A stretch of 64,000 nt of DNA, taken from positions 87,015 to 151,014 of the forward strand of contig JASJFT010000108.1 of assembly GCA_030770425.1 (NCBI GenBank). The letters run 5' to 3'. Shown piece after piece: positions 8,028 through 61,600 of this stretch. Position 1 is the stretch's first letter. Every line of letters begins with the position of its first letter. Both the position numbers and the translations under genes were made by a program. This DNA is from Darksidea phi (lineage: Eukaryota; Ascomycota; Dothideomycetes; Pleosporales; Lentitheciaceae). The notes beneath the pieces are model-generated. The model ran no database searches and was not told where the DNA came from. It was given only the letters and a program-made list of their open reading frames with translations.

Positions 8028-10278
8028 TTAGCATGTTCCGGCCTCCATACTCTCTTGAAATCTCCTCGCAATCTCTAACATCTCCGCATCTAACCTACTC
8101 CCACTCAAGAACGTCACACTAAACGGCAAGACGCCCTCGTCCTCCTTCCTGCCACTAAGCTCAGAAACGGGATACGTGCCAGCCGGCACCGCTGCAGCAC
8201 ACAGATCTAGTACATTGCCACAGTGTGTGAACTCACCCAACACACTGTTCTTCTTGATTGGATCGGCGAGCACTTCTTCGATCGTCCAATGAGTTGGCGC
8301 GGTAGGTACTACGAGTACGTCAATACCCGATGCTGCATATGCAAAGACTTGATCTGCTTGACGTGTGTAAAGGGCCTTGGCTTGGAGGTCGCGGTAGGCT
8401 TGTACCGCTGTGCTTTGCCTCGCAATGACGGCGTCTATCAGCTTCAATATCACAGGGTGTAGCGCTGAGCGATTCTTCTCGAGAAAGTCGTCTGGTAAAG
8501 AGGCTAAACGCTCCGAGACGAAAGTGCCGTCGTACAGTAGTTGCCCGGCCTTCTGAAAGGGGGACCAGTCAAAGGGTGTGAGTACCCCACCCATCTTTTG
8601 CAGTTTTGCAACCGTCTCATTGAACATACGACGTGCAGGAAGCGAACAGATGGCCAGGGCCTCGGGCGGTGGGATGCCGAATTTGAATGCTTTTGCTTGG
8701 AGGCCAATGCTATTGATATGGCGCTCGAAGGCGATGGCGGGTTTAGAGTAGGGATCGGAGGGGTCAGAATCTTCGAGGATTTGCCAGAGTGTTCGGGCGT
8801 CTGAGACAGTGCGCGTAGTAAGGGCAATGCAGTCTAACGATAGGCATGCAGGCGTGACGCCACAGAAGGAGATCGTGCCTCGCGTGGGCTTGTAGCCTAC
8901 GACACCATTGAAGCCTGGTGGTACCCGGCCTGAACCCGCCGTATCTGTTGCGAGGGAAAAAGAAACGAGGTTTGCGCCTACGGAAACGGCATTGCCGCTG
9001 CTAGAACCGCCACTGATGTAATCTTTGTGGAAGACGGAGTGTGGGATGCCGTAGGGGCTTCGGCACCCGGTAAGTCCTGTCGCGAGTTGATCAAGGTTGG
9101 TTTTGCCAATGAACAGTGCGCCTTCGGATACAACTTTTTCATAAACAACAGCGGAAGTAGACGCAACATGTGCCAGTGGTGGACATGCGGTCGTTGTTTG
9201 TAAGCCTGCTACATCGATACTGTCCTTGAGGGAGAATGGGATACCGAACAAAGGCGGAAGCGCCTTTCGATCAGTGTATTTGGCAGCCAAAGTCTTCGCG
9301 GCGGAGAGCACATTGTCTTTGGATTCGAGGTGGATCCATACTGCAGGGTCAATACTTTTGTATGCTTCGATTTTGTCGTAGAGGGTCTCGGCCACGGTGA
9401 CTGGAGAGAGACCATTCCTGTAGGCCCTCTGTAGACTCGTAATTGTCAGGTCGCCATCAAAGTCTGGCGGTGTCTGCGGCGGTGTAGACTCCGTATTGCG
9501 ACTAAGAGTAGCCAGAGGTGTGAGTACGTCTACGAGAGGTTGCAGGGCACCGATGAAGCCGAAGAGGCCTTGAGACCAATGGATCATGTCGAGAGTACTT
9601 TTCTTAAAGCACCCATCGTTGTAACCACTTGTCGCTTCTTCGATGCCACCTGAACATTGTTAACGTTTGGACTTTGTTGCTTGGAGAGTGCAACTTACAA
9701 CACTCAAAGCCTCTGTCATTCGCCTCCCTGATCGAGGTTGCAAAACAGCATTCGGTCGTGACGCCAGAAACTATAAGATGAGTGATCGCTCGAGCCTTCA
9801 ACTTGTGGAAAATTTCAGTGTTCCAGAACGAGCCTTTGCCAGGCTTGTCGATAACCACCTCTCCAGGAAGTGGCTGCAGTTCGTCGATGATATCATGTCC
9901 ATACTCGCCGCGAACAAGCAGCCGACCCAGTTCACCCTTCTCACCAATGACGAGTTTGTGTTGAGTATTGTTGGGTGCGGCAGCCTGCCTCACCAATTTT
10001 GACGAAGGGCAGTCTGACAGGTCTGGCTTGTGGCCTTCGCGCGTATGCACGATAGTCATGCCAGCACCTCTGCATGCGTCAAGAAGCTTCTTTGTTGGAG
10101 CAATAGAAGCTTGGACTGCTTCCAGGTTTCCGCCTTGTATCTCGCCAAACCCCTTCGCCAGTAGGAAGTCGCGCTGCATGTCAATCACGAGGAGGGCGGT
10201 GTGTTTGAGAGTGAAGGAGAACGCGTATGGCTTCGCGTCAAAAGTGAGAACTTCTGTGCCATCTTTTGAAGAAGACAT
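8028..10278 (-). CDS. Isochorismatase-like cysteine hydrolase fused to allophanate-hydrolase-type amidase
   Basis: Single gene of two exons, 10278-9699 and 9649-8028, giving 733 aa. Residues 1-~225 form an isochorismatase-fold cysteine hydrolase (family of biuret and ureidoacrylate hydrolases). The candidate triad is Asp33 in LLVIDMQRDF, Lys145 in IDKPGKGSFWNT and Cys178 in GVTTECCF. The 49-nt intron (GTAAGT...TTCAG) joins FEC to CGIEEATSGYNDG, completing that fold; the same frame runs with no stop through DMIHWSQGLFGF into the amidase. Residues ~260-733 form an amidase-signature domain most like allophanate hydrolase: Lys335 in FSLKDSID, the cis-Ser within GGSSSG near 410 and Ser433 in DTAGSGRVP. 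The C-terminal extra domain of bacterial AtzF is absent. Known chemistry of the halves suggests ureido or biuret substrate to allophanate to ammonia plus CO2; the substrate is inferred. Probably cytosolic, as no targeting signal is seen. The Met at 9587 is internal, not a separate gene start. Confidence 0.85.
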
Positions 10279-10958
10279 GGTAACAGTGCAAGAGCAAGCT
10301 AGAGCGAAGTCCCGACCAAGCAGAGTGATTCTGTAAGTGGAGAGCGGGGGGTTTCACGCAACTTCAACAGAGAATGCAAAAAGACTAGAGATGCAAGTCA
10401 GGAAAAAGGAAATGAGACACCTCACGCTCGATAGATCCCATCTATCTGATTAAGGTCCGATATCAGAAGTTGCCGCAGGCTCATGCAGCGGGCCTCCGGC
10501 CGGCGAGCGGTTAGGCGAAGGCGCGGCCATCTTTATCTGGGGAATCTAGAGCGCTAATCCAATTCCGAACTAGAACTCTCTCTCTCGACATCTACCCCGC
10601 TAGCCTGGCCCTCTTTTCCCTGAACACACCTTAGCCATCAAGCCTCTTTCCCCACGAAACAGCTCTGGGGATCGCTTGATGGCGCGTCTCATTTGATACA
10701 GCTAGCCCATGTGTTTGCAAATCGCAAGCACCCTAGCACGGCGCTATGGCTCGCCGCAGGCTCCTATCTTTCGAGCTTTCGGCGTATCAATATCTGATGC
10801 CTGGCTTGTGAGCATCTTAGGAAAGCTGGCTTGACCCTGGTGAGATGTATATGTAGGTGCAAGGAACCCAGGGAAAATATTCCGCATCATCGGGTTATTG
10901 ATCTGCTTGAACAAGCCTCGCTAAATATTTTGAAGAAGCATCTTTCAACCGCCACATC
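10279..10958. promoter_or_regulatory. Divergent promoter of hydrolase fusion and NCS1 permease, with GATA sites
   Basis: This 680-bp region separates two divergent start codons and so holds both promoters. Four matches to the fungal nitrogen GATA-factor site HGATAR (either strand) lie at 10429-10434 (CGATAG), 10442-10447 (CTATCT), 10533-10538 (TTATCT) and 10764-10769 (CTATCT). About two would be expected by chance, so this is supportive but not decisive. A GC-rich CCGGCCGGCG stretch near 10495-10505 resembles paired CGG triplets used by Zn2Cys6 factors. Together they suggest nitrogen-repressed, pathway-induced expression (inference). Confidence 0.45.
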
Positions 10959-12689
10959 ATGTCTGTCCTCAAATCTAGACTCGCTCCTCACCTCCGTCTC
11001 CGCGTGCCCTTCGAGAGTGGCAAGTATGGCTCTCGTTGGTCCAACAAAGGTGGGTGACATGCCCTCGCCATCTTTTGTGCATCTGATCTTAACACACTGT
11101 AGATCTTGATCCCGTTCCGCCAGCAGAGAGAACCTGGGGTGGCATCGACTATTGGGCATATTGGTGCTCGGATATGCTCGCGCCCCCTCTGGCAGCCACT
11201 GTTTCTAGTGTCATGTCTCTGGGTTTCACAGCTCGAGAGACCATTCCAATTGTCTTCTTCGGTTTCGCCATCTGTAGCGTAGTCATCACCTTGACTGGCA
11301 AGATGGGCGCCACCTACAACGTGCCCTTCCCTGTCATTATACGAAGCATCTTTGGCATGTACGGATCGTTTCCTGCCATCTGTATTCGAGCTTTTGTAGC
11401 CCTCATGTGGACCGCGATTCTCACTGTTCAAGCCGGAAATTTCCTCCAACGGGCGATCGAGGCAATCTGGCCAAGTTTTATCAACTTCCCCAACCATCTC
11501 TCGGAAGATGCTGGTGTCACTTCGGCCGGGTTGCTATGCATCTTTCTCTACTGGTTCTGCCAGACCGGTCTTGCGCTCATGCCAATCTCTAAACTGAGGA
11601 TCCTTTTCTGGGTCAAAGGCATCATTGTTCCTCCCACCTTCTTTGCCCTGTTCCTGTGGGGTGCCATTGTTACCAAAGGCGGCGGCGAGCTTGTCACCGG
11701 AAAGGCCCAGATAACCTCGACCTATATGAATACGGCGTACTCCGCTTTAACTGGTCTTAACGTTATCATCGGACTTTTCAGCTCGCTCGCTGTAAATATG
11801 CCCGATTTCGGTCGTTTCTCAAAGAACCGTTTGAGGGGTGGTCATCAATTCTTTGCTCTACCCGTTATTGGTACCCTTGGAGCACTGACTCCAATCTTTG
11901 TCACGTCGGCTCATTCTTACATTTGGGGCGAGTTTGAATGGTGAGTGGATTATCCCATTAATCGCGGTACATCATCTAACGGCCACAATTAGGTACATGC
12001 CGGCCGTCATCGCAAAATTCGACTCACGTGCAGCCAAATTCTTCGTCTCGGCATCTTTCATGCTTGCAACTATCGGAAATCAAGTTGCTGCCGGAACCTA
12101 CCCGTTCTCCAACGATGTCACCGGTATGGCGCCCAAGTACATTAACATCTTCCGCGCAACCGTCTTTATCAGCATCTTCTGTATCATCTCAACCCCATGG
12201 AACATCATCAAGAACGCTGCTGGCCTCCTCGCCTTTCTCTCGGGTTACTCATGCCTGATGGGGCCTCTCGCAGGTACTATGGTGTGTGATTACTATATCA
12301 TTAAAAAGCGGAAGCTTAACATCGACGAGCTCTACGCCAGCAATAGCATCTATTGGTATACTGGTGGTTGGAATTGGAGAGCGTATGCATCCTTCATCAT
12401 TGGGTTTGCGCCATTACTGCCCGGGTTTGCGAAGAGCATCGCGCCGACGCTCAACGTTGGAGGTGCATGGAAAATATACAGCTTTGCGTGGATATTCGGC
12501 TTCGCCCTTTCTATGCTCACGCATTACATTATCTGTACCTACATCTCGAAGCCGACCGAGTCGATCATTGAGGAAGCGGTCTACCCAGACCAGGCTGGTG
12601 ACCTCAGCCCACCCGTCATTGAAGGCGAGGAAGGAGAAACTAAGACTGCGTTTGTCACGAGGGAGAAGGAGGCCTCCGATATTGTTTGA
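10959..12689 (+). CDS. NCS1 family nucleobase/ureide permease
   Basis: Nucleobase-cation-symport-1 transporter, about 541 aa with around 12 membrane helices; fungal relatives (Fur/Dal4/Fcy-type) import uracil, allantoin, uridine, thiamine or related compounds with protons at the plasma membrane. Three exons: 10959-11049, 11103-11940 and 11993-12689. Family features are the cytosolic lead-in SNKDLDPVPPAERTW, the first helix GGIDYWAYWCSDM, the helix 3 region MGATYNVPFPVIIRSIFGMYG, a loop SLAVNMPDFGRFSKN (a conserved NCS1 helix 6-8 region) and PLAGTMVCDYYIIKKRKLN near the end. It is divergent from the hydrolase fusion and shares its promoter, which suggests it imports that enzyme's substrate or a precursor. 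The acidic tail ends in ASDIV. Confidence 0.9.
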
Positions 12690-13867
12690 AGTGTTCTATT
12701 TGGGCGTTGGCTAGGACGAGGTGGGTCCTCTGGGATCTTAGCCAAGTCTCGTGATCATCCACTGTATCCACTGCGGGCTCGTCAATATCACTTATCGAGG
12801 ATGTCTCTATCGTTGTATTTATTTCAAAGGAGGCACTAGCTATGCTTACTCATAAGTCTGAAGAACCCAACTTCTGAATGCATTGTGCCCTGGAATGGAG
12901 TGATGCCACAACAACCCATTCAGAGAATACTTGCGCAAGAATAATACTAGTAGCTGTTGGGTGTTCGTATGCTGGCCAGTAGTCGTTACAGAACGAGTTG
13001 AGTAACAAAGTCTCGCTAGTCTGGGGCTCCTATTGGCTCCACCATCTTTCTTATCTTCCACGTCGAGACCACCACCCCACCGTTGCTTTTCCTCCTTGCC
13101 CAAGGGCCGTCAGGTCGCCGCCGTCGGAGCGGTTGCCGGTGTCCAGCGCTTATCTCCTTTCCCACCTCGCATTGTGCCTGAAGCGAGTAGTGAATCTCAA
13201 CACGACGGCTTCAAGTCCTACATTAAAGACTTAAATCTCGCATTGATATCGAATCCTTTCATCAGTACACATGATTCACGCACTTTCGCACTTTCGCCAC
13301 AGCAGCCGTTTAGTCTTCGTAAGCGGCCGGCGCTGGATGAGGTATGACATGCGGCACTATCTGTGAGCGTCCGCCGCAGATCCCGCCCTGACGGTAAGTG
13401 ATTACCATTTCGCATACTTCCTATTTAGGGACATCTTTCTCTCCTGGCCTCTTGGCAATGACTTCGGGTGGAGTTACATCGCGTCCTGCCTTCTAATTCC
13501 GGATGTGTGTTCTACAAGGCGTTCAGGCACGCTAACATCTCTACACACGATGTTTTCTCATCACTGTTTCGGTGATGAGAAAGTGATGGGATTGATGTGT
13601 TTGGATGTTAGTGCGGACTAAGTGCAGGCTTTCCGCTTCCCTCTACAGCCGTCATTTCCTGAATCGGTGTTCCTGATATCAATTGAATTGTTCACTTCGA
13701 AAGAATTTTTAGGCCGCAATCCACGTTAGCAGAACGTAAGCGCATTATACTCTCAAGACAAATATCTCAATTTGTAGTCAATGGCCTGCTATTTTAGCTT
13801 CTCGACCCACCATTTACTGGCCGGTCGAAGGAGAGCAATAGGCTAACTTGATTACAGTCCAAAAACA
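12690..13867. other. Intergenic upstream of Zn2Cys6 regulator, with an 11-bp hairpin
   Basis: About 1.18 kb lies between two same-strand genes. It contains a perfect 11-bp inverted repeat at 13554-13582 (listed separately). I found no coding frame with recognisable protein character; the frame near 13033-13347 looks like non-coding composition. Confidence 0.4.
13554..13582. promoter_or_regulatory. Perfect inverted repeat, 11-bp arms
   Basis: TTTCTCATCAC is followed after 7 bases by its exact reverse complement GTGATGAGAAA. It sits about 290 bp upstream of the Zn2Cys6 regulator ATG. It could be a palindromic protein-binding site in that promoter or a hairpin in the 5' leader. Which one is unknown. 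Confidence 0.5.
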
Positions 13868-16221
13868 ATGGACTTCAGTCCAACGCAAGCTTTCGCTCCA
13901 AATGATTTCTTCGCAAGCCAAAATGAAATCGCAACAGCCGCTAAGACAAGATCTCGTCGCCCCTGTGACTCATGTCGCCGTCGGAAATCAAGGTGTGAAA
14001 TAATCGACGCTGGTCCACCTTGTGTGTTGTGCCGTTTCCACCGGCAAGAGTGTACCTTCATTGAAGGACCGCAGCCTCGAAAGCGAAGAGCTGTCGCATT
14101 CAACAACGAAGATATAACGACGGAAAGAGACGCAACTCATGACGTTCCTGTACACAGGGCGAGGAAGCCCTCGAGTAGCTCTCCCACTGATATACCCAGA
14201 ATCCGTCAGGATCCTCCAGTTGCTGATTATGCTGATCTGAAAGGACCCTCACTCCTCAAGAAGACTTTAGGTTTGCAGAACCATCGCCATAGTCGTTTAA
14301 TCGGATCTACGTCAGAGTATGAACAAGTACTTATTGAGCTCGGAGATTATCATGAAAGAGAAGAGATCGCTATCGGCCTCTCAGCCCTACGCAAAGTCAA
14401 TTCTCTTGACGCGGCCTTCATACTTTCCCCGGACACAGGCACAAGAAACCACGGCGACGAGATTGCAGATCTTGACGCGATAGAAACACTCGTTGCTCCA
14501 CATGGGCAGGCCTTGATTCGTCTCTACTTCCGCATTGTTCATCCCAGCTTTCCGGTACTGCATAAAAGGGTCTTCCTGGAGAAATATCGACGTACTCATC
14601 GAGAGTTCTCTCCACCTCTATTGGCTGCGGTTTACATTCTAGCCCTGAATTGGTGGACCTACAGCAGTGAGCTCGCACTACTTCCAAAACCGGACGTACT
14701 GCAGCTTGAGGTGCTGGCCTTCAAGACCATCAACGACATCATTCACAGACCCAAGCTTTCAACCATACAAGCTGGTTTACTTTTGCTCCAAAGACCTGAA
14801 GGCGGGTCTTGGGCTCTGACCACGCAACTCGCGGGCCTTGGACAGGATCTCGGGTTACACCTTGACTGCTCATCATGGAGGATACCATCCTGGGAACGAG
14901 GGCTGAGAAAGAGACTAGCTTGGGCACTATTTATGCAAGACAAATGGGGTTCTCTCATGCACGGTCGGCCGTCCCATATCACAACAGCAGATTGGGATGT
15001 GATGCCACTGGAGGAGGACGACTTTCCAGAGAATGCCGCCGATGAAGATGATGAAGATGGAAGTGCCGAAGTGGAGAAAGGGCGAATATTGTTTTGCGAG
15101 ATGATCAAGCTTACGGAGATCCTTGGCTTGGTGCTCTCAAATTTCTACACTTTGAAAGCTGAGAAAGAGTTCGAGGAACGAGCTCACGAAGGTCTTCGCT
15201 GGATTCTTGAGAAAGCCAAGCCGATTCAACTTTCATTGCGACAGTGGCATTCAGAACTGCCAGCTTCTTTGAAGATGGAGAGCATCGCTATGCGAAAGCT
15301 ATCGTCAACTGGTAAGCTCTTGATTTGCATTCACAATGATAGTGATCTGACCCCACATAGGCTACCTGCACCTCGGCTACTATGCTGTTGAGATCACTCT
15401 CCATCGGCGTATCATCCGCTCCCTATCCTCAGCGGATGACCCGTCTCTTCGTTTGATATGCCGTCAAGCCGCGCAAGCCCGACTCAAGTCGGCGATGGAA
15501 TTTGTGCAGAGCCTTCGTCCTGAGCACTTACAATCTTTCTGGTACGTGAATCGAGTCATTTTCCCCTTTCTAAAGCTTATGAGCTACCCTCTAAAGTGTC
15601 CGGCGTGGCAGTTCTGTTCTCGGAACTTAATCAACGCTCGGCGAAGTGTACTAACTTTGGGTCTCGATCTTTAGGTATTCAGCATCTAAATACTGCTTCG
15701 CACTTATCGGCACTTTTATATCCCTTCTATGGGTAACATCCCTGAGCGGGGAGGAGGCTGACATGTACAGGGCGAATATGGATGAATATCGATGGACACT
15801 ACGGCTTTCTTCGAGATCTGCAGAATTCCTTGAGCGAGCTATCAGCATGCTTGCAACTTCATCCGGTGTCCTCATGAAAGACGTCTCCGAGCGCCCAAAT
15901 ATCGATTTTATACTCAACAGGTATCTTGAGCGGACGGCACACGGCTTCTCGACCACATGGCATCGTTCAGACACCACCTCCCAGGTCCATTCGGTTGTAT
16001 ACCAGTCAGAACCTGAGATTCACGAAGATACATCTCCGGAGCATGGATTTGGGGAAACACCTTCAGAAAGTGGTATCGCAAGCAGTGAGTGGAATGCTGA
16101 CCAGGCTTGGTTTGCGACCGCGGTGAGCAATGGTGAAGATATTTTCGGAAGCTCTAGCAATGCGAATGCGTACCTGCAGATGCTAGAGCCGGAAGATCCA
16201 CAGGATGGGTTACAATTCTGA
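13868..16221 (+). CDS. Zn2Cys6 transcription factor, Dal81/TamA/Urc2-like
   Basis: Fungal binuclear zinc cluster regulator of 723 aa from three exons: 13868-15311, 15361-15541 and 15675-16221. The DNA-binding domain at residues ~37-68 has six cysteines in the usual spacing (RPCDSCRRRKSRCEI...PPCVLCRFHRQECTF). Then come GPSLLKKTLGLQNHRHSRLIG and a fungal-specific regulatory domain (LYFRIVHPSFPVLHKRVF, REFSPPLLAAVYILALNWW, WRIPSWERGLRKRLAWALF). These motifs resemble the Dal81/TamA/Urc2 group, which regulates nitrogen-source utilisation genes. That assignment is from motif memory, not an alignment. An acidic stretch lies near residues 385-400. The position beside the permease and the ureide-type hydrolase supports a pathway-specific role (inference). 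Confidence 0.87.
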
Positions 16222-57705: not shown

Positions 57706-58622
57706 ATGCGGATTGATGGATAACTGAGCAGTGTTATAAATTATAACATGGGGCTTTTGAGATTCTAAATGTTCGGATACTAAAGAGCAATTTCTCTCAG
57801 CTTTTTAGACCCTTTTCGGACAAATGTGAAAATGACTTCACAAGAGAGGGTTAGGTGTTTTGAAAAAAGTTTCCTCGAGAGTCGGCCTTACCGGGGTCGC
57901 ATCCCATCGTCATTGGCTGGTTGAGTGTGTATGCCTAATTGACGCCCGGGGTCGTCGGCACGTAGGTTCCGTTGATTGGATGGCTAATCTCATCACATGT
58001 CGTCACCCCAGAGCGGACACCAAACAAATCTCTAATTTAGCGGACATCATGGCGATTGGCGGGAGCCTGCTTGTACATTTTAGTAATCGAGTTCTACCAA
58101 CAGGACTTCGATGATTCGAATTTGGTCCTGTACATACTAAGTAGGCGCATATGGAAAACGGGTGACCATAACGCGCAAATGCGATCTCAAAATCTTTCAG
58201 GTTCAAGATTCGGCGTCGGGAGTCGTCACTTGTATAAGTCCTGGCACTGCGACTGGCGAAGCAATAAACTTCTTGCCTGGTTCTGGACGGTGATCCTTCT
58301 GTCTGGCCCCCAAATCTCTCTGTGTGGCACTCAAACCGTGCCCTCCCGTACGCCCATAAGCCCCCTAACGACTTCTCGCGCTACAAAGTGCTATGGCCGG
58401 GAGGCATTACTTACAGACTCTTTGTTAGGATTCGTCGTGTTTTGCACACCTCTAAGTCTTCAAGTGCTTCAATCTTTTTCATACCGCTCTGTCTGATAAC
58501 CGTGCCTCTAGAGAGGGAACGCTTCCCAAGTTGTTTTCCTGCGCTGCGCACAATGCTTTATTAGCTACAAAGCTTCCATTTCTCGGCCCTCTGCGTTCCA
58601 GTTGATACACTTCCATTCGAAG
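57706..58622. other. Intergenic upstream of the broken NLR-type gene
   Basis: About 915 bp of lower GC. An open frame at 58056-58496 shows no family similarity and lies in the likely promoter or leader of the downstream gene. No other feature was supported. Confidence 0.4.
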
Positions 58623-61600
58623 ATGGCGTCGCGGGATAGCTACACAGTTGGATGGCTTTGCGCTCTCCCGGTGGAGCTCGCGGCGGCCAAGGCCATGCTT
58701 GACGACATCCACCCTAGCCTACCTCTGGATCCGAATGTTAACGACACCAACAGCTATGTCCTGGGAAGTATCGGTGGTCATAACGTCGTACTCGCATCCT
58801 CACCCTCTGGCGTTTATGGCAGCACCTCAGTTGCGGCTGGAACGAAACGAATGCTTGAGAGCTTCAAATCCATCCGGTTCAGCCTGATGGTCGGCATTGG
58901 AGGAGGAGCACCAAATACGAAGAACAATATCGTTCTGGGCGATATTGTTGTCAGTAAACCGACGGCGACCCGGCCGGGCCTCATGCTGTACGATTTTCAG
59001 ACCTCCAGCCACGATCAGTTTACCGGCACCAAGGCATTGAAGAAGCCATCAAACCTGCTCCTCACAGCAGCAGGCAAGGCCGAGACGAACAGTATCCTTG
59101 GCGAAAGTCAGATACCTCGTTATATCTCCGATGTTGTATCGACAGATCCCACGACCTTTGCCAACCCAGGTCCGGATAAGGACGTCCTCTTCGACTCGGA
59201 CTATGAGCATATAACCACAGGATCCGCAGAGAATAGATACAATCATTGCGACCCGAACAGAATTCTCAGTCGACCACGGCGAGAGAACCAGGACCCTAAA
59301 GTATATTATAGCCTGATTGCGTCCGCGAACCTGTGGAAATCTAGTAAGGTAACCATGGACAAGTTGGCGCGCGAGCATGGTATTCTTTGTTTTGAAACAG
59401 AGGCGGCTGGTTTTTTGGACACCGATTAATACTTAATCATCCGCGGAGTTTGTGACTATACAGATTCACATCGCTCCAAGCTCTGGCATGGCTACGCCGC
59501 TGCTGCCGCCGCTGTATATGCAAAAGAGATTCTGTTGTTGATTCCAACAGCCCCAAAGGCAGCAACTCTGACGGTAGATCAGACAGCGGACACAATGACG
59601 TTGTCGGCCCCTATTCTTAATACTTTGCTCATAACAAGACCCGAAATCGACCGAACTTCTCTGATTGCATTAAAGGGACGGAGAGCCGATAGTACCTGCG
59701 ACTAGATCGTACAATATTCGAGCTACCAAGAATAGCTGGCCGGAGGTGGTCCACTACTTCTTTAGATCTTAGGACGCCCTGGAAAGGGGGAAACCATAAT
59801 ATCTATCTATCTTTCAGAAGTATTACAGCCAGTAATAGACCCGAAAGACGGTATTCTTCTCTACTACTTTATTAGTAACCGAGACAGAAATCGGAACACA
59901 GCGCTGACCATTATAAGAGGGATCCTATTCTAGTAGCTCAGCTTCCAACCCTATCTAGCACAACATATCAAAACCTACTTTAAAGGCTCTAAATCAAGAA
60001 AATATACCATTTCCAGCTTTGTCTCCTTGTAGAGGCTTTTCCTTATCATACTAAGTCAAAGCGGGTCTACTCAAGTAGTATGTGTACTAGATAGACTGGA
60101 CGAATACGAAAAGAAAACTCTCAGGCAACTCCTTGACGCCTCGGGGACTACATCTCGAAAGCCGAGGAGATACCAACACCAAAATTAAGGCTTATTTGTC
60201 TATCCCGCCCTCAACCAGTCTTTCTAGAGAACAAGCTCGGTCGATATTATCGGATCAAACTTGATAATTTGGAGAAAGAGACTAGGATAGACGTCGAGAG
60301 ATACATCTTTGCCGAAGTTGCCGAATTAAAGTCCGAGGGAAATCTGTCAGCCGACAATCTCCTGGATGTTCAGCAGGCCTTACAGGCCGGCTCCAATGGA
60401 ACCTTTTTATGGGTCGGATTTGTCGCGGATGAGCTCAAGGGAAGGACTTGGGAAAAAGTCCAGGAAGTCCTTCATCGAATGCCCAAGGGCCTTGGTGGAG
60501 TCTATCAGCGGCTGCTTCAGCTAGTTGAAGACAAAGAAAGGCTGATCCCCATGCTTCAATGGATTGTTCTCGCCGCCCGACCTTTAACAGTGGACGAATT
60601 GACAGCGGTGACGAAGACAAAGGCGTCAGACGCCCTGACGCCAAGTGACATGATAAGGGATCAACTTGCATCTTGCGGGCTGTTGGTGAGGCTCGAAGGA
60701 AACGTTGTGAATCTCGTTCACGAATCGGCAAAGGAGTTTTTCCAGAGTGAGCAAGTTAACATCAAAGGGATTGACATGTTCTACATGGACCAGACTATTC
60801 ATCTGGCCCTTATGCAGACCTGCCTAACTCCCATCGAAGAAAGTTACAAACCCTCCGACAAAATCAGCAACGCGTGCGTAAACAACAGCCTCTTGGCTTA
60901 TGCGTGTATGTACTGGCCAGAGCACTTCCGACATGCATTCGAGGTAATGAATGAGTCTCATTTTTCACGTCCGTTCTTCCTACCACAGTCTCCAATCCGG
61001 GAGGGTTGGTGGGAGTGCTATTGGGAAGAGGAAAAATACGGCGGAGTCACACCCACGTTCACTCTCTTGCACCTGGCTGCGTACTTCGGCAACGTAGGCT
61101 GGACCAAAATGTTACTCAAACAGTATGGTACAGATCATGTAGCCTCTCGCCGTCTCACCCGGCAAAAAGATAACTATAGCCGTGCGCCGCTTTTCTGGGC
61201 CGCCACTAGGGACTATAAAGACGCGGCGGAATTCCTGATCAGTCGTGGCGCCAGGATTAATGCTAAGGATCGGAGCGGATTGACTGCACTATATATTGCC
61301 GTTACTTTAGATCACAAGGACGTCGTGGATCTGCTGCTAGGCTCGGGCGCTCGGATCGAGGGCAAGGCTACTTACGGCGACACGCCGTTGATTAGAGCTA
61401 TCTAAGCAAATTCTGAGGAAAATATCAAGGTGCTTCTTAAACGTGGTAAGAAGGTGAACAAATTACCGCTTCCTCCTGGAGTTACCTCTCTAAAAGGCCC
61501 TAAGGAACCAGTGGACGAGCGAGTTCAAGAGCTGCTGAAGCTTCAAGAACAGCTATTTGCCAGACGGTACGCGAATTCTTCAAGAAGCGTTACTATTATT

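Follow-up and report, generated by a model that had tools for sequence, protein, structure and literature searches.

A conserved fungal gene joins a cysteine hydrolase of the triuret/biuret hydrolase family to an amidase of the allophanate hydrolase type

Introduction

The dothideomycete Darksidea phi encodes a real, conserved and apparently uncharacterised domain fusion, in which a cysteine hydrolase, divergent within the triuret/biuret hydrolase (TrtA/BiuH) family to judge from its sequence, is followed, on a single 733-amino-acid chain, by an amidase that is very probably an allophanate hydrolase. We think it somewhat more probable than otherwise that the gene product is a bifunctional polyuret/ureide hydrolase, which would feed allophanate to its own amidase and serve in nitrogen salvage.

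If this is correct, many Pezizomycotina could draw on biuret-type compounds for nitrogen (such compounds occur as impurities in fertiliser and may arise when uric acid is oxidised) without urea carboxylase, which would explain why an allophanate hydrolase is kept in a mould with no urea carboxylase detected. The fusion also provides a natural set of variants for probing the specificity of the biuret/triuret pocket, and suggests that what were once called stand-alone fungal amidases make up one half of a fusion enzyme. The initial annotation of this DNA knew of no characterised fungal example, and we met none, nor any description of the fusion, in the literature searched; an earlier mention elsewhere is possible.

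Results

Two apparent genes form one spliced reading frame

The window (the whole stretch of DNA analysed, 64,000 nucleotides) carries the gene on its minus strand, as follows.

complement(join(8028..9649, 9699..10278)), minus strand: coding sequence of the fusion, 733 amino acids in two exons, from splicing and translation
9699..10278, minus strand: exon 1, residues 1-193 and one base of codon 194, with Asp33, Lys145 and Cys178
9650..9698, minus strand: intron of 49 nt, GTAAGT...TTCAG, with GT-AG ends, splitting codon 194
8028..9649, minus strand: exon 2, the rest of the cysteine hydrolase fold, the linker and the amidase, with the stop at 8028-8030

Unspliced, the first frame ends after 224 amino acids. 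Nine AG sites lie in the 120 nt past the donor: the 49-nt intron yields the 733-residue chain, a 64-nt alternative also gives a long frame (728 amino acids) but deletes conserved residues, and the remaining seven lead to early stops. The intron that the initial annotation had proposed is therefore confirmed at 9650-9698, its 9649 and 9699 being the adjacent exon bases, and the catalytic residues that it named (Asp33, Lys145, Cys178, Lys335 and Ser433) are present at those positions. Pfam searches of the translation, which it had put forward as a check, find both domains in one chain, with PF00857 (isochorismatase) at residues 27-207 (E 8.7e-34) and PF01425 (amidase) at residues 282-706 (E 1.1e-71). 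Exon 2 carries Ser219-Gln220, where TrtA and BiuH have Gln-Gly, as well as the amidase residues Lys335 and Ser433 and the motif GGSSSG.

An orthologue (P0001; 732 amino acids, 91% identical) was modelled with AF2 from a 57-sequence alignment, giving a mean pLDDT of 82.8 and a pTM of 0.88; pLDDT falls below 50 at residues 243-250, the linker. The model is a single chain, and position 202 of the TrtA numbering used below would act across the dimer.

The fusion is conserved across five or more classes of Pezizomycotina

A homologue search over 5.8 billion proteins, in which 7,999 candidates were scored, returned 7,677 matches, of which the best 120 were listed. Both domains lie on one protein in 119 of these 120 (64-91% identity), the sole exception being P0105, a 551-residue protein with the amidase only; the orthologues are thus not always two genes, and the claim that the apparent gene pair is a single gene stands. 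The proposed FECC|G motif across the splice junction is borne out as well, since the junction reads through conserved sequence, with its pattern present in 118 of the 120 homologues, 105 of these 118 having FECCG itself.

Among the matches listed, the nearest homologue is that of Lentithecium fluviatile (Dothideomycetes), and other carriers belong to the Geoglossomycetes, Sordariomycetes, Eurotiomycetes and Lecanoromycetes, making at least five classes of Pezizomycotina with the Dothideomycetes; the best 120 cover the top matches and are silent on other fungal phyla. The fusion is not rare, and its conservation is far beyond chance. Its distribution across fungi is probably patchy, as Table 2 of PMC3073912 gives a stand-alone amidase in three Dothideomycetes and in no Eurotiomycetes, Botrytis or Neurospora that it covers. 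A search of the 51.35-Mb Darksidea phi genome yielded no further copy.

A separate search with the N-terminal domain used a length filter of about 133-423 amino acids, which excludes full fusions. Among the best 120 of its 8,000 matches, 85 alignments stop exactly at the splice codon (residue 194), 21 stop at residues 195-221, and 14 run past residue 225. The 85 ends at residue 194 resemble exon-1 fragments, so that the intron position would be widely shared.

The N-terminal half is a divergent cysteine hydrolase of the TrtA/BiuH family

In a PDB search, the best solved relative of the N-terminal domain is TrtA (6xix, 206 bits), followed by biuret hydrolases at 174 and 172 bits. Against the NCBIfam equivalog model for BiuH (NF050097) it scores 216.5 bits, under the cut-off of 370, and against the RutB model 94 bits, the cut-off being 377.95. 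The assignment of the fold rests on sequence, since the 50 of 616 Foldseek rows shown include no isochorismatase structure.

A tree with RutB as outgroup, comprising 14 of 29 fungal rows, all 11 paired TrtA-like proteins, three references, and, drawn at random, 20 other TrtA-like and 14 BiuH-like proteins, places the domain with TrtA where this enzyme and BiuH part (98/92); its root is insecure, because only part of the rows was used and the RutB branch is very long. A larger tree of 155 rows, without outgroup and drawn with a midpoint root, splits off the fungal rows from every bacterial one at 100. The fungal stem is long in both trees (1.57 and 2.01 changes per column).

Pocket positions were read in 119 fungal rows (P0105 was dropped for length), with TrtA numbering as in PMC7948467. 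The Asp, Lys and Cys of the triad are kept in 117/117 readable rows and a second Lys in 115 of 117, corresponding to D33, K145, C178 and K148 in the window protein. Three TrtA letters are also retained: F35 in 119/119 rows and, where a row can be read, E160 in 117/117 and Y187 in 117/118. At positions 35, 41, 160 and 187 the window protein has F, G, E and Y, where BiuH has Y, Y, D and T.

Two substrate-pocket positions differ. At position 41, 113 of the 119 fungal rows have G and none has N, and position 202, a Gln in TrtA, is Ser in all 117 readable rows, while Q202 is present in 123/123 bacterial relatives taken from the 80 loci described below. As P0077 and similar rows show no gap between Y187 and position 202, the change from Gln to Ser is not an alignment shift, and the variation of the following residue (Q in 107 rows, E in 9, K in 1) indicates that the neighbouring Gln is not a strict replacement.

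According to the two enzyme studies, Q202 of TrtA comes from the partner subunit and touches triuret and biuret, and the N41Y variant has less than 10% of activity left (PMC7948467); in BiuH, Gln215Ala or Gln215Glu raises KM more than 25-fold, Gln215Asn keeps KM and loses kcat, and Ser is absent from the variants listed (PMC5806882). The same account of TrtA gives its product as carboxybiuret, not allophanate, and notes trtA in some fungi (PMC7948467). Given the Gln202 to Ser and position 41 changes, the domain is by signature neither BiuH nor TrtA, and the conserved Gln-to-Ser change places it outside both characterised specificities. The initial comparison of the first half with BiuH is accordingly not supported: the model score (216.5 against 370 bits), the closer relationship to TrtA in the tree, TrtA letters at three pocket positions and the missing substrate Gln all speak against a BiuH identity.

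The C-terminal half is in all probability an allophanate hydrolase

By sequence the C-terminal domain is closest to AtzF (4cp8, 327 bits) and the Granulibacter bethesdensis enzyme (314.5 bits). The best Foldseek matches are 4gys and 4cp8, and the 50 of 616 rows shown are all of the amidase family, with allophanate hydrolases leading. Scores against the two NCBIfam models are both below cut-off (NF006043, 451 bits against 487; TIGR02713, 419.6 against 511.05); the bacterial L035 protein, which also has no AH_C domain, reaches 534.5 and 500.9 bits, respectively. An amidase of the AtzE type (1-carboxybiuret hydrolase) is ruled out by 134.9 bits against a cut-off of 461 for NF006631.

The Ser-cisSer-Lys residues K335, S409-S411 and S433 are invariant in 57 aligned members, and GGSSSG and TAGSGR occur in 120 and 119 of the 120 listed homologues, respectively. 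Y566 and R574 are likewise invariant in the 57 members and present in 21/21 fungal tree rows. We take this Tyr/Arg pair to be the carboxylate anchor, its role in the G. bethesdensis structure. Between the two residues, 118 of the 120 fungal proteins have TF or SF; the bacterial proteins shown mostly have PW.

In a tree of 64 amidases, the 21 fungal sequences fall inside the allophanate-hydrolase clade (100/100); ten of 12 other amidases lie outside it, the remaining two being short fragments that fall within. Clade, catalytic residues and Tyr/Arg pair together uphold the proposal that the second half is of allophanate-hydrolase type. The fungal enzymes are nearest to actinobacterial ones (92/87, below the starred level of the tool). 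The Dur1,2 domain of K. lactis groups with betaproteobacterial enzymes, apart from the fusion, and a Dur1,2 origin of the amidase is therefore not supported.

Pfam finds no AH_C domain in the fusion protein, and none was found in the genome by a search that matched two of 14 control genomes. The loss of AH_C need not abolish function, since AtzF trimmed to its amidase domain has biuret activity equal to that of the full-length enzyme, according to PMC3944691.

Bacterial loci pair the two enzyme types as separate genes

From at least 561 confirmed bacterial stretches, 80 TrtA-like loci were kept. Both domains share one stop-to-stop frame at none of the 80; a bacterial fusion elsewhere is possible. 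A gene with the allophanate-hydrolase motif is present in the covered flanks of 28 of the 80 loci (25 of 58 where the flanks are complete), and 28 is a lower bound, as L090 and L091, which are short and have no motif, also fall in the allophanate-hydrolase clade. In 14 of the 28, the covered flanks hold no second member of the hydrolase family.

Eight of the pairs are actinobacterial (L026, L030, L035, L044, L051, L057, L083 and L100). Here the amidase gene comes first and ends at most about 65 nt from the trtA-like start, or slightly overlaps it, and N41 and Q202 are kept in the TrtA-like member of all eight. The amidases have no AH_C domain, as confirmed by Pfam for L026, L030, L035, L057 and L083 and judged by length for L044, L051 and L100; within the hand-picked set of ten bacterial proteins scanned, AH_C is missing in eight. 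The covered flanks of these eight pairs also hold no second family member.

Elsewhere, amidases of the AtzE family adjoin trtA-like genes (L031, 6811-8262; L060, 6764-8275; L097, 6845-8284), with scores above 700 bits against the cut-off of 461, and bacteria may thus also use a route from triuret through carboxybiuret to AtzE. The amidases of L065, L074 and L077 belong to the AtzE-family clade of the amidase tree.

Nitrogen enzymes and neighbouring genes in Darksidea phi

The genome encodes urease alpha and uricase. For urea carboxylase no genome match exceeds the family cut-off, and partial matches correspond to shared biotin carboxylase and biotin parts only. Because a whole-protein cut-off is hard to reach exon by exon, the CT_A_B domain is the decisive test, and none was found in the genome by a search that matched six of 14 control genomes. 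With no urea carboxylase detected, no urea-carboxylase source of allophanate was found in Darksidea phi. Cyanuric acid hydrolase has no genome match either, a result that carries no information, as the same search was silent in every control genome too.

The best match to the N-terminal domain elsewhere in the genome (C68:348954-349825, minus strand; L104 355-1226) has BiuH-type letters and looks decayed, with conserved blocks in different frames and stops between them. A weaker, open family member is found on C346 (30% identity, 40 bits). An isochorismatase domain also lies at C445:385463-386203 (minus strand), in a reported 1073-residue open frame that is possibly a multi-domain protein.

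Two neighbours of the fusion gene were annotated in the window.

11093..12689, plus strand: NCS1 permease (PF02133), two overlapping open frames, transcribed divergently from the fusion
13847..15391, plus strand: Zn2Cys6 regulator (PF00172, PF04082), from Pfam

The Zn2Cys6 gene is a possible local regulator. No PDB relative of the permease was found with a partial query. The divergent promoter (10279-10960) holds four HGATAR sites in 682 bp, a number that 9.7% of window stretches of the same length also reach; GATA enrichment is thus not significant. Farther away, at 58512-61402, adjacent frames resemble a fungal NLR-type gene, with a PNP_UDP_1 match below threshold and with GPIID_WHD and ankyrin repeats.

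Discussion

In the explanation that we favor, the N-terminal domain would attack through Cys178 to open a small ureide or polyuret, whether biuret, triuret or a close analogue of these, and this first half would produce allophanate. Deamination of allophanate by the Ser-cisSer-Lys amidase would release ammonia and leave an unstable dicarboxylate, which would decay to CO2 and ammonia; tethering of the two domains may limit the spontaneous decarboxylation of allophanate. Biuret is a plausible substrate. Passing of allophanate between the domains, which the initial annotation had held to be strongly implied, appears reasonable but weak, because TrtA yields carboxybiuret.

In favor of a bifunctional enzyme are the fusion in 119 of 120 homologues with conserved catalytic residues, an amidase that lies in the allophanate-hydrolase clade, scores 451 bits with the allophanate-hydrolase model against 135 with that for AtzE, and has 4gys and 4cp8 as its best structural matches, the pairing at 28 of 80 bacterial loci, the activity of trimmed AtzF (PMC3944691), and a genome in which CT_A_B was not found, urease is present and the C68 family member looks decayed. 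Against it stand the Gln-to-Ser change in 117/117 rows, carboxybiuret as the product of TrtA, scores of both halves under the NCBIfam cut-offs, TF or SF in place of PW in the amidase, and the additional family member on C346.

A first alternative, which we consider unlikely, is that the N-terminal domain is a triuret hydrolase, whose 1-carboxybiuret would be decarboxylated to biuret or taken by the amidase. TrtA is indeed its best PDB relative, the domain groups with TrtA in the tree and has F35, E160 and Y187, and the 14 bacterial loci (of 80) where an allophanate hydrolase accompanies a TrtA-like gene, with no second member in the covered flanks, would be consistent with such a pathway; yet N41 and Q202 of the triuret site are both changed, the former at a position where a Tyr costs TrtA most of its activity, and the amidase is not AtzE-like, AtzE being the reported carboxybiuret enzyme and its family being the one that adjoins trtA-like genes in three scanned loci.

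There is also some chance, which we judge to be small, that the N-terminal domain acts on another ureide or amide, such as guanylurea, an N-carbamoyl acid or ureidoacrylate, and that the amidase has shifted along with it. The replaced pocket residue in all readable rows, the long fungal stem and the change from PW to TF in the amidase would fit this, as would a wider family that includes RutB and, according to PMC9800807, a guanylurea hydrolase. TrtA and BiuH are nevertheless the closest solved relatives, the Tyr/Arg pair is kept, and the RutB model score is far under its cut-off.

A more speculative and rather improbable variant assigns the domain to a specificity class of its own, the third in the TrtA/BiuH family, in which Gln202 to Ser and Asn41 to Gly would shift the register of the polyuret in the pocket, with allophanate as the direct product of cleavage (triuret, for instance, yielding allophanate and urea). 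The amidase and the urease of the cell would then finish the reaction, one chain serving as a polyuret mineralase in moulds, and the two halves would derive from a bacterial trtA/allophanate-hydrolase pair, perhaps of actinobacterial origin, whose genes were acquired and then became fused.

That two genes were mis-joined in reading, or that the fusion is non-functional, is very improbable despite the early stop of the unspliced frame, and we reject the two-gene reading on the strength of the single-polypeptide homologues, the conserved sequence across the junction, the alignment ends at the splice codon and the conserved catalytic residues of both halves.

The preferred bifunctional enzyme shares features with several known systems. 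TrtA of Herbaspirillum (6xix; PMC7948467) is 49% identical to the N-terminal domain and shares its triad, F35, E160 and Y187, but is not fused to an amidase and has N41 and Q202; at these two sites the fungal domain carries, respectively, G in most rows and Ser. BiuH of Rhizobium (6azo, 172 bits; PMC5806882) has the family, triad and second Lys in common with it, whereas the Y, Y, D and T of BiuH at the four TrtA positions and its Gln215 are missing from the fungal domain. AtzF and other allophanate hydrolases (4cp8, 4gyr) have the amidase fold, catalytic residues and Tyr/Arg pair of the fungal protein, which differs in having no AH_C and in carrying the amidase fused behind a cysteine hydrolase.

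Stand-alone amidases have been reported in three Dothideomycetes, Stagonospora nodorum and Cochliobolus heterostrophus among them (Strope 2011; PMC3073912), and the word isochorismatase is absent from the main text of that paper. Both of these species are listed there with a urea carboxylase as well, so that the amidase may serve urea there too (PMC3073912). We infer that the stand-alone amidases of Strope 2011 are the C-terminal half of the fusion. By synonymy of the species names, the amidases of S. nodorum and C. heterostrophus would be P0048 and P0071.

Dur1,2 resembles the fusion as a single fungal chain containing allophanate hydrolase, but there the partner is urea carboxylase, with an ATP-dependent step, whereas the fusion has only PF00857 and PF01425; the contrast with Dur1,2 drawn in the initial annotation is sustained, no urea carboxylase domain being detected on the chain and no CT_A_B in the genome. 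The actinobacterial pairs of trtA-like and allophanate hydrolase genes have the same two enzyme types, with an amidase that likewise has no AH_C, but in two genes.
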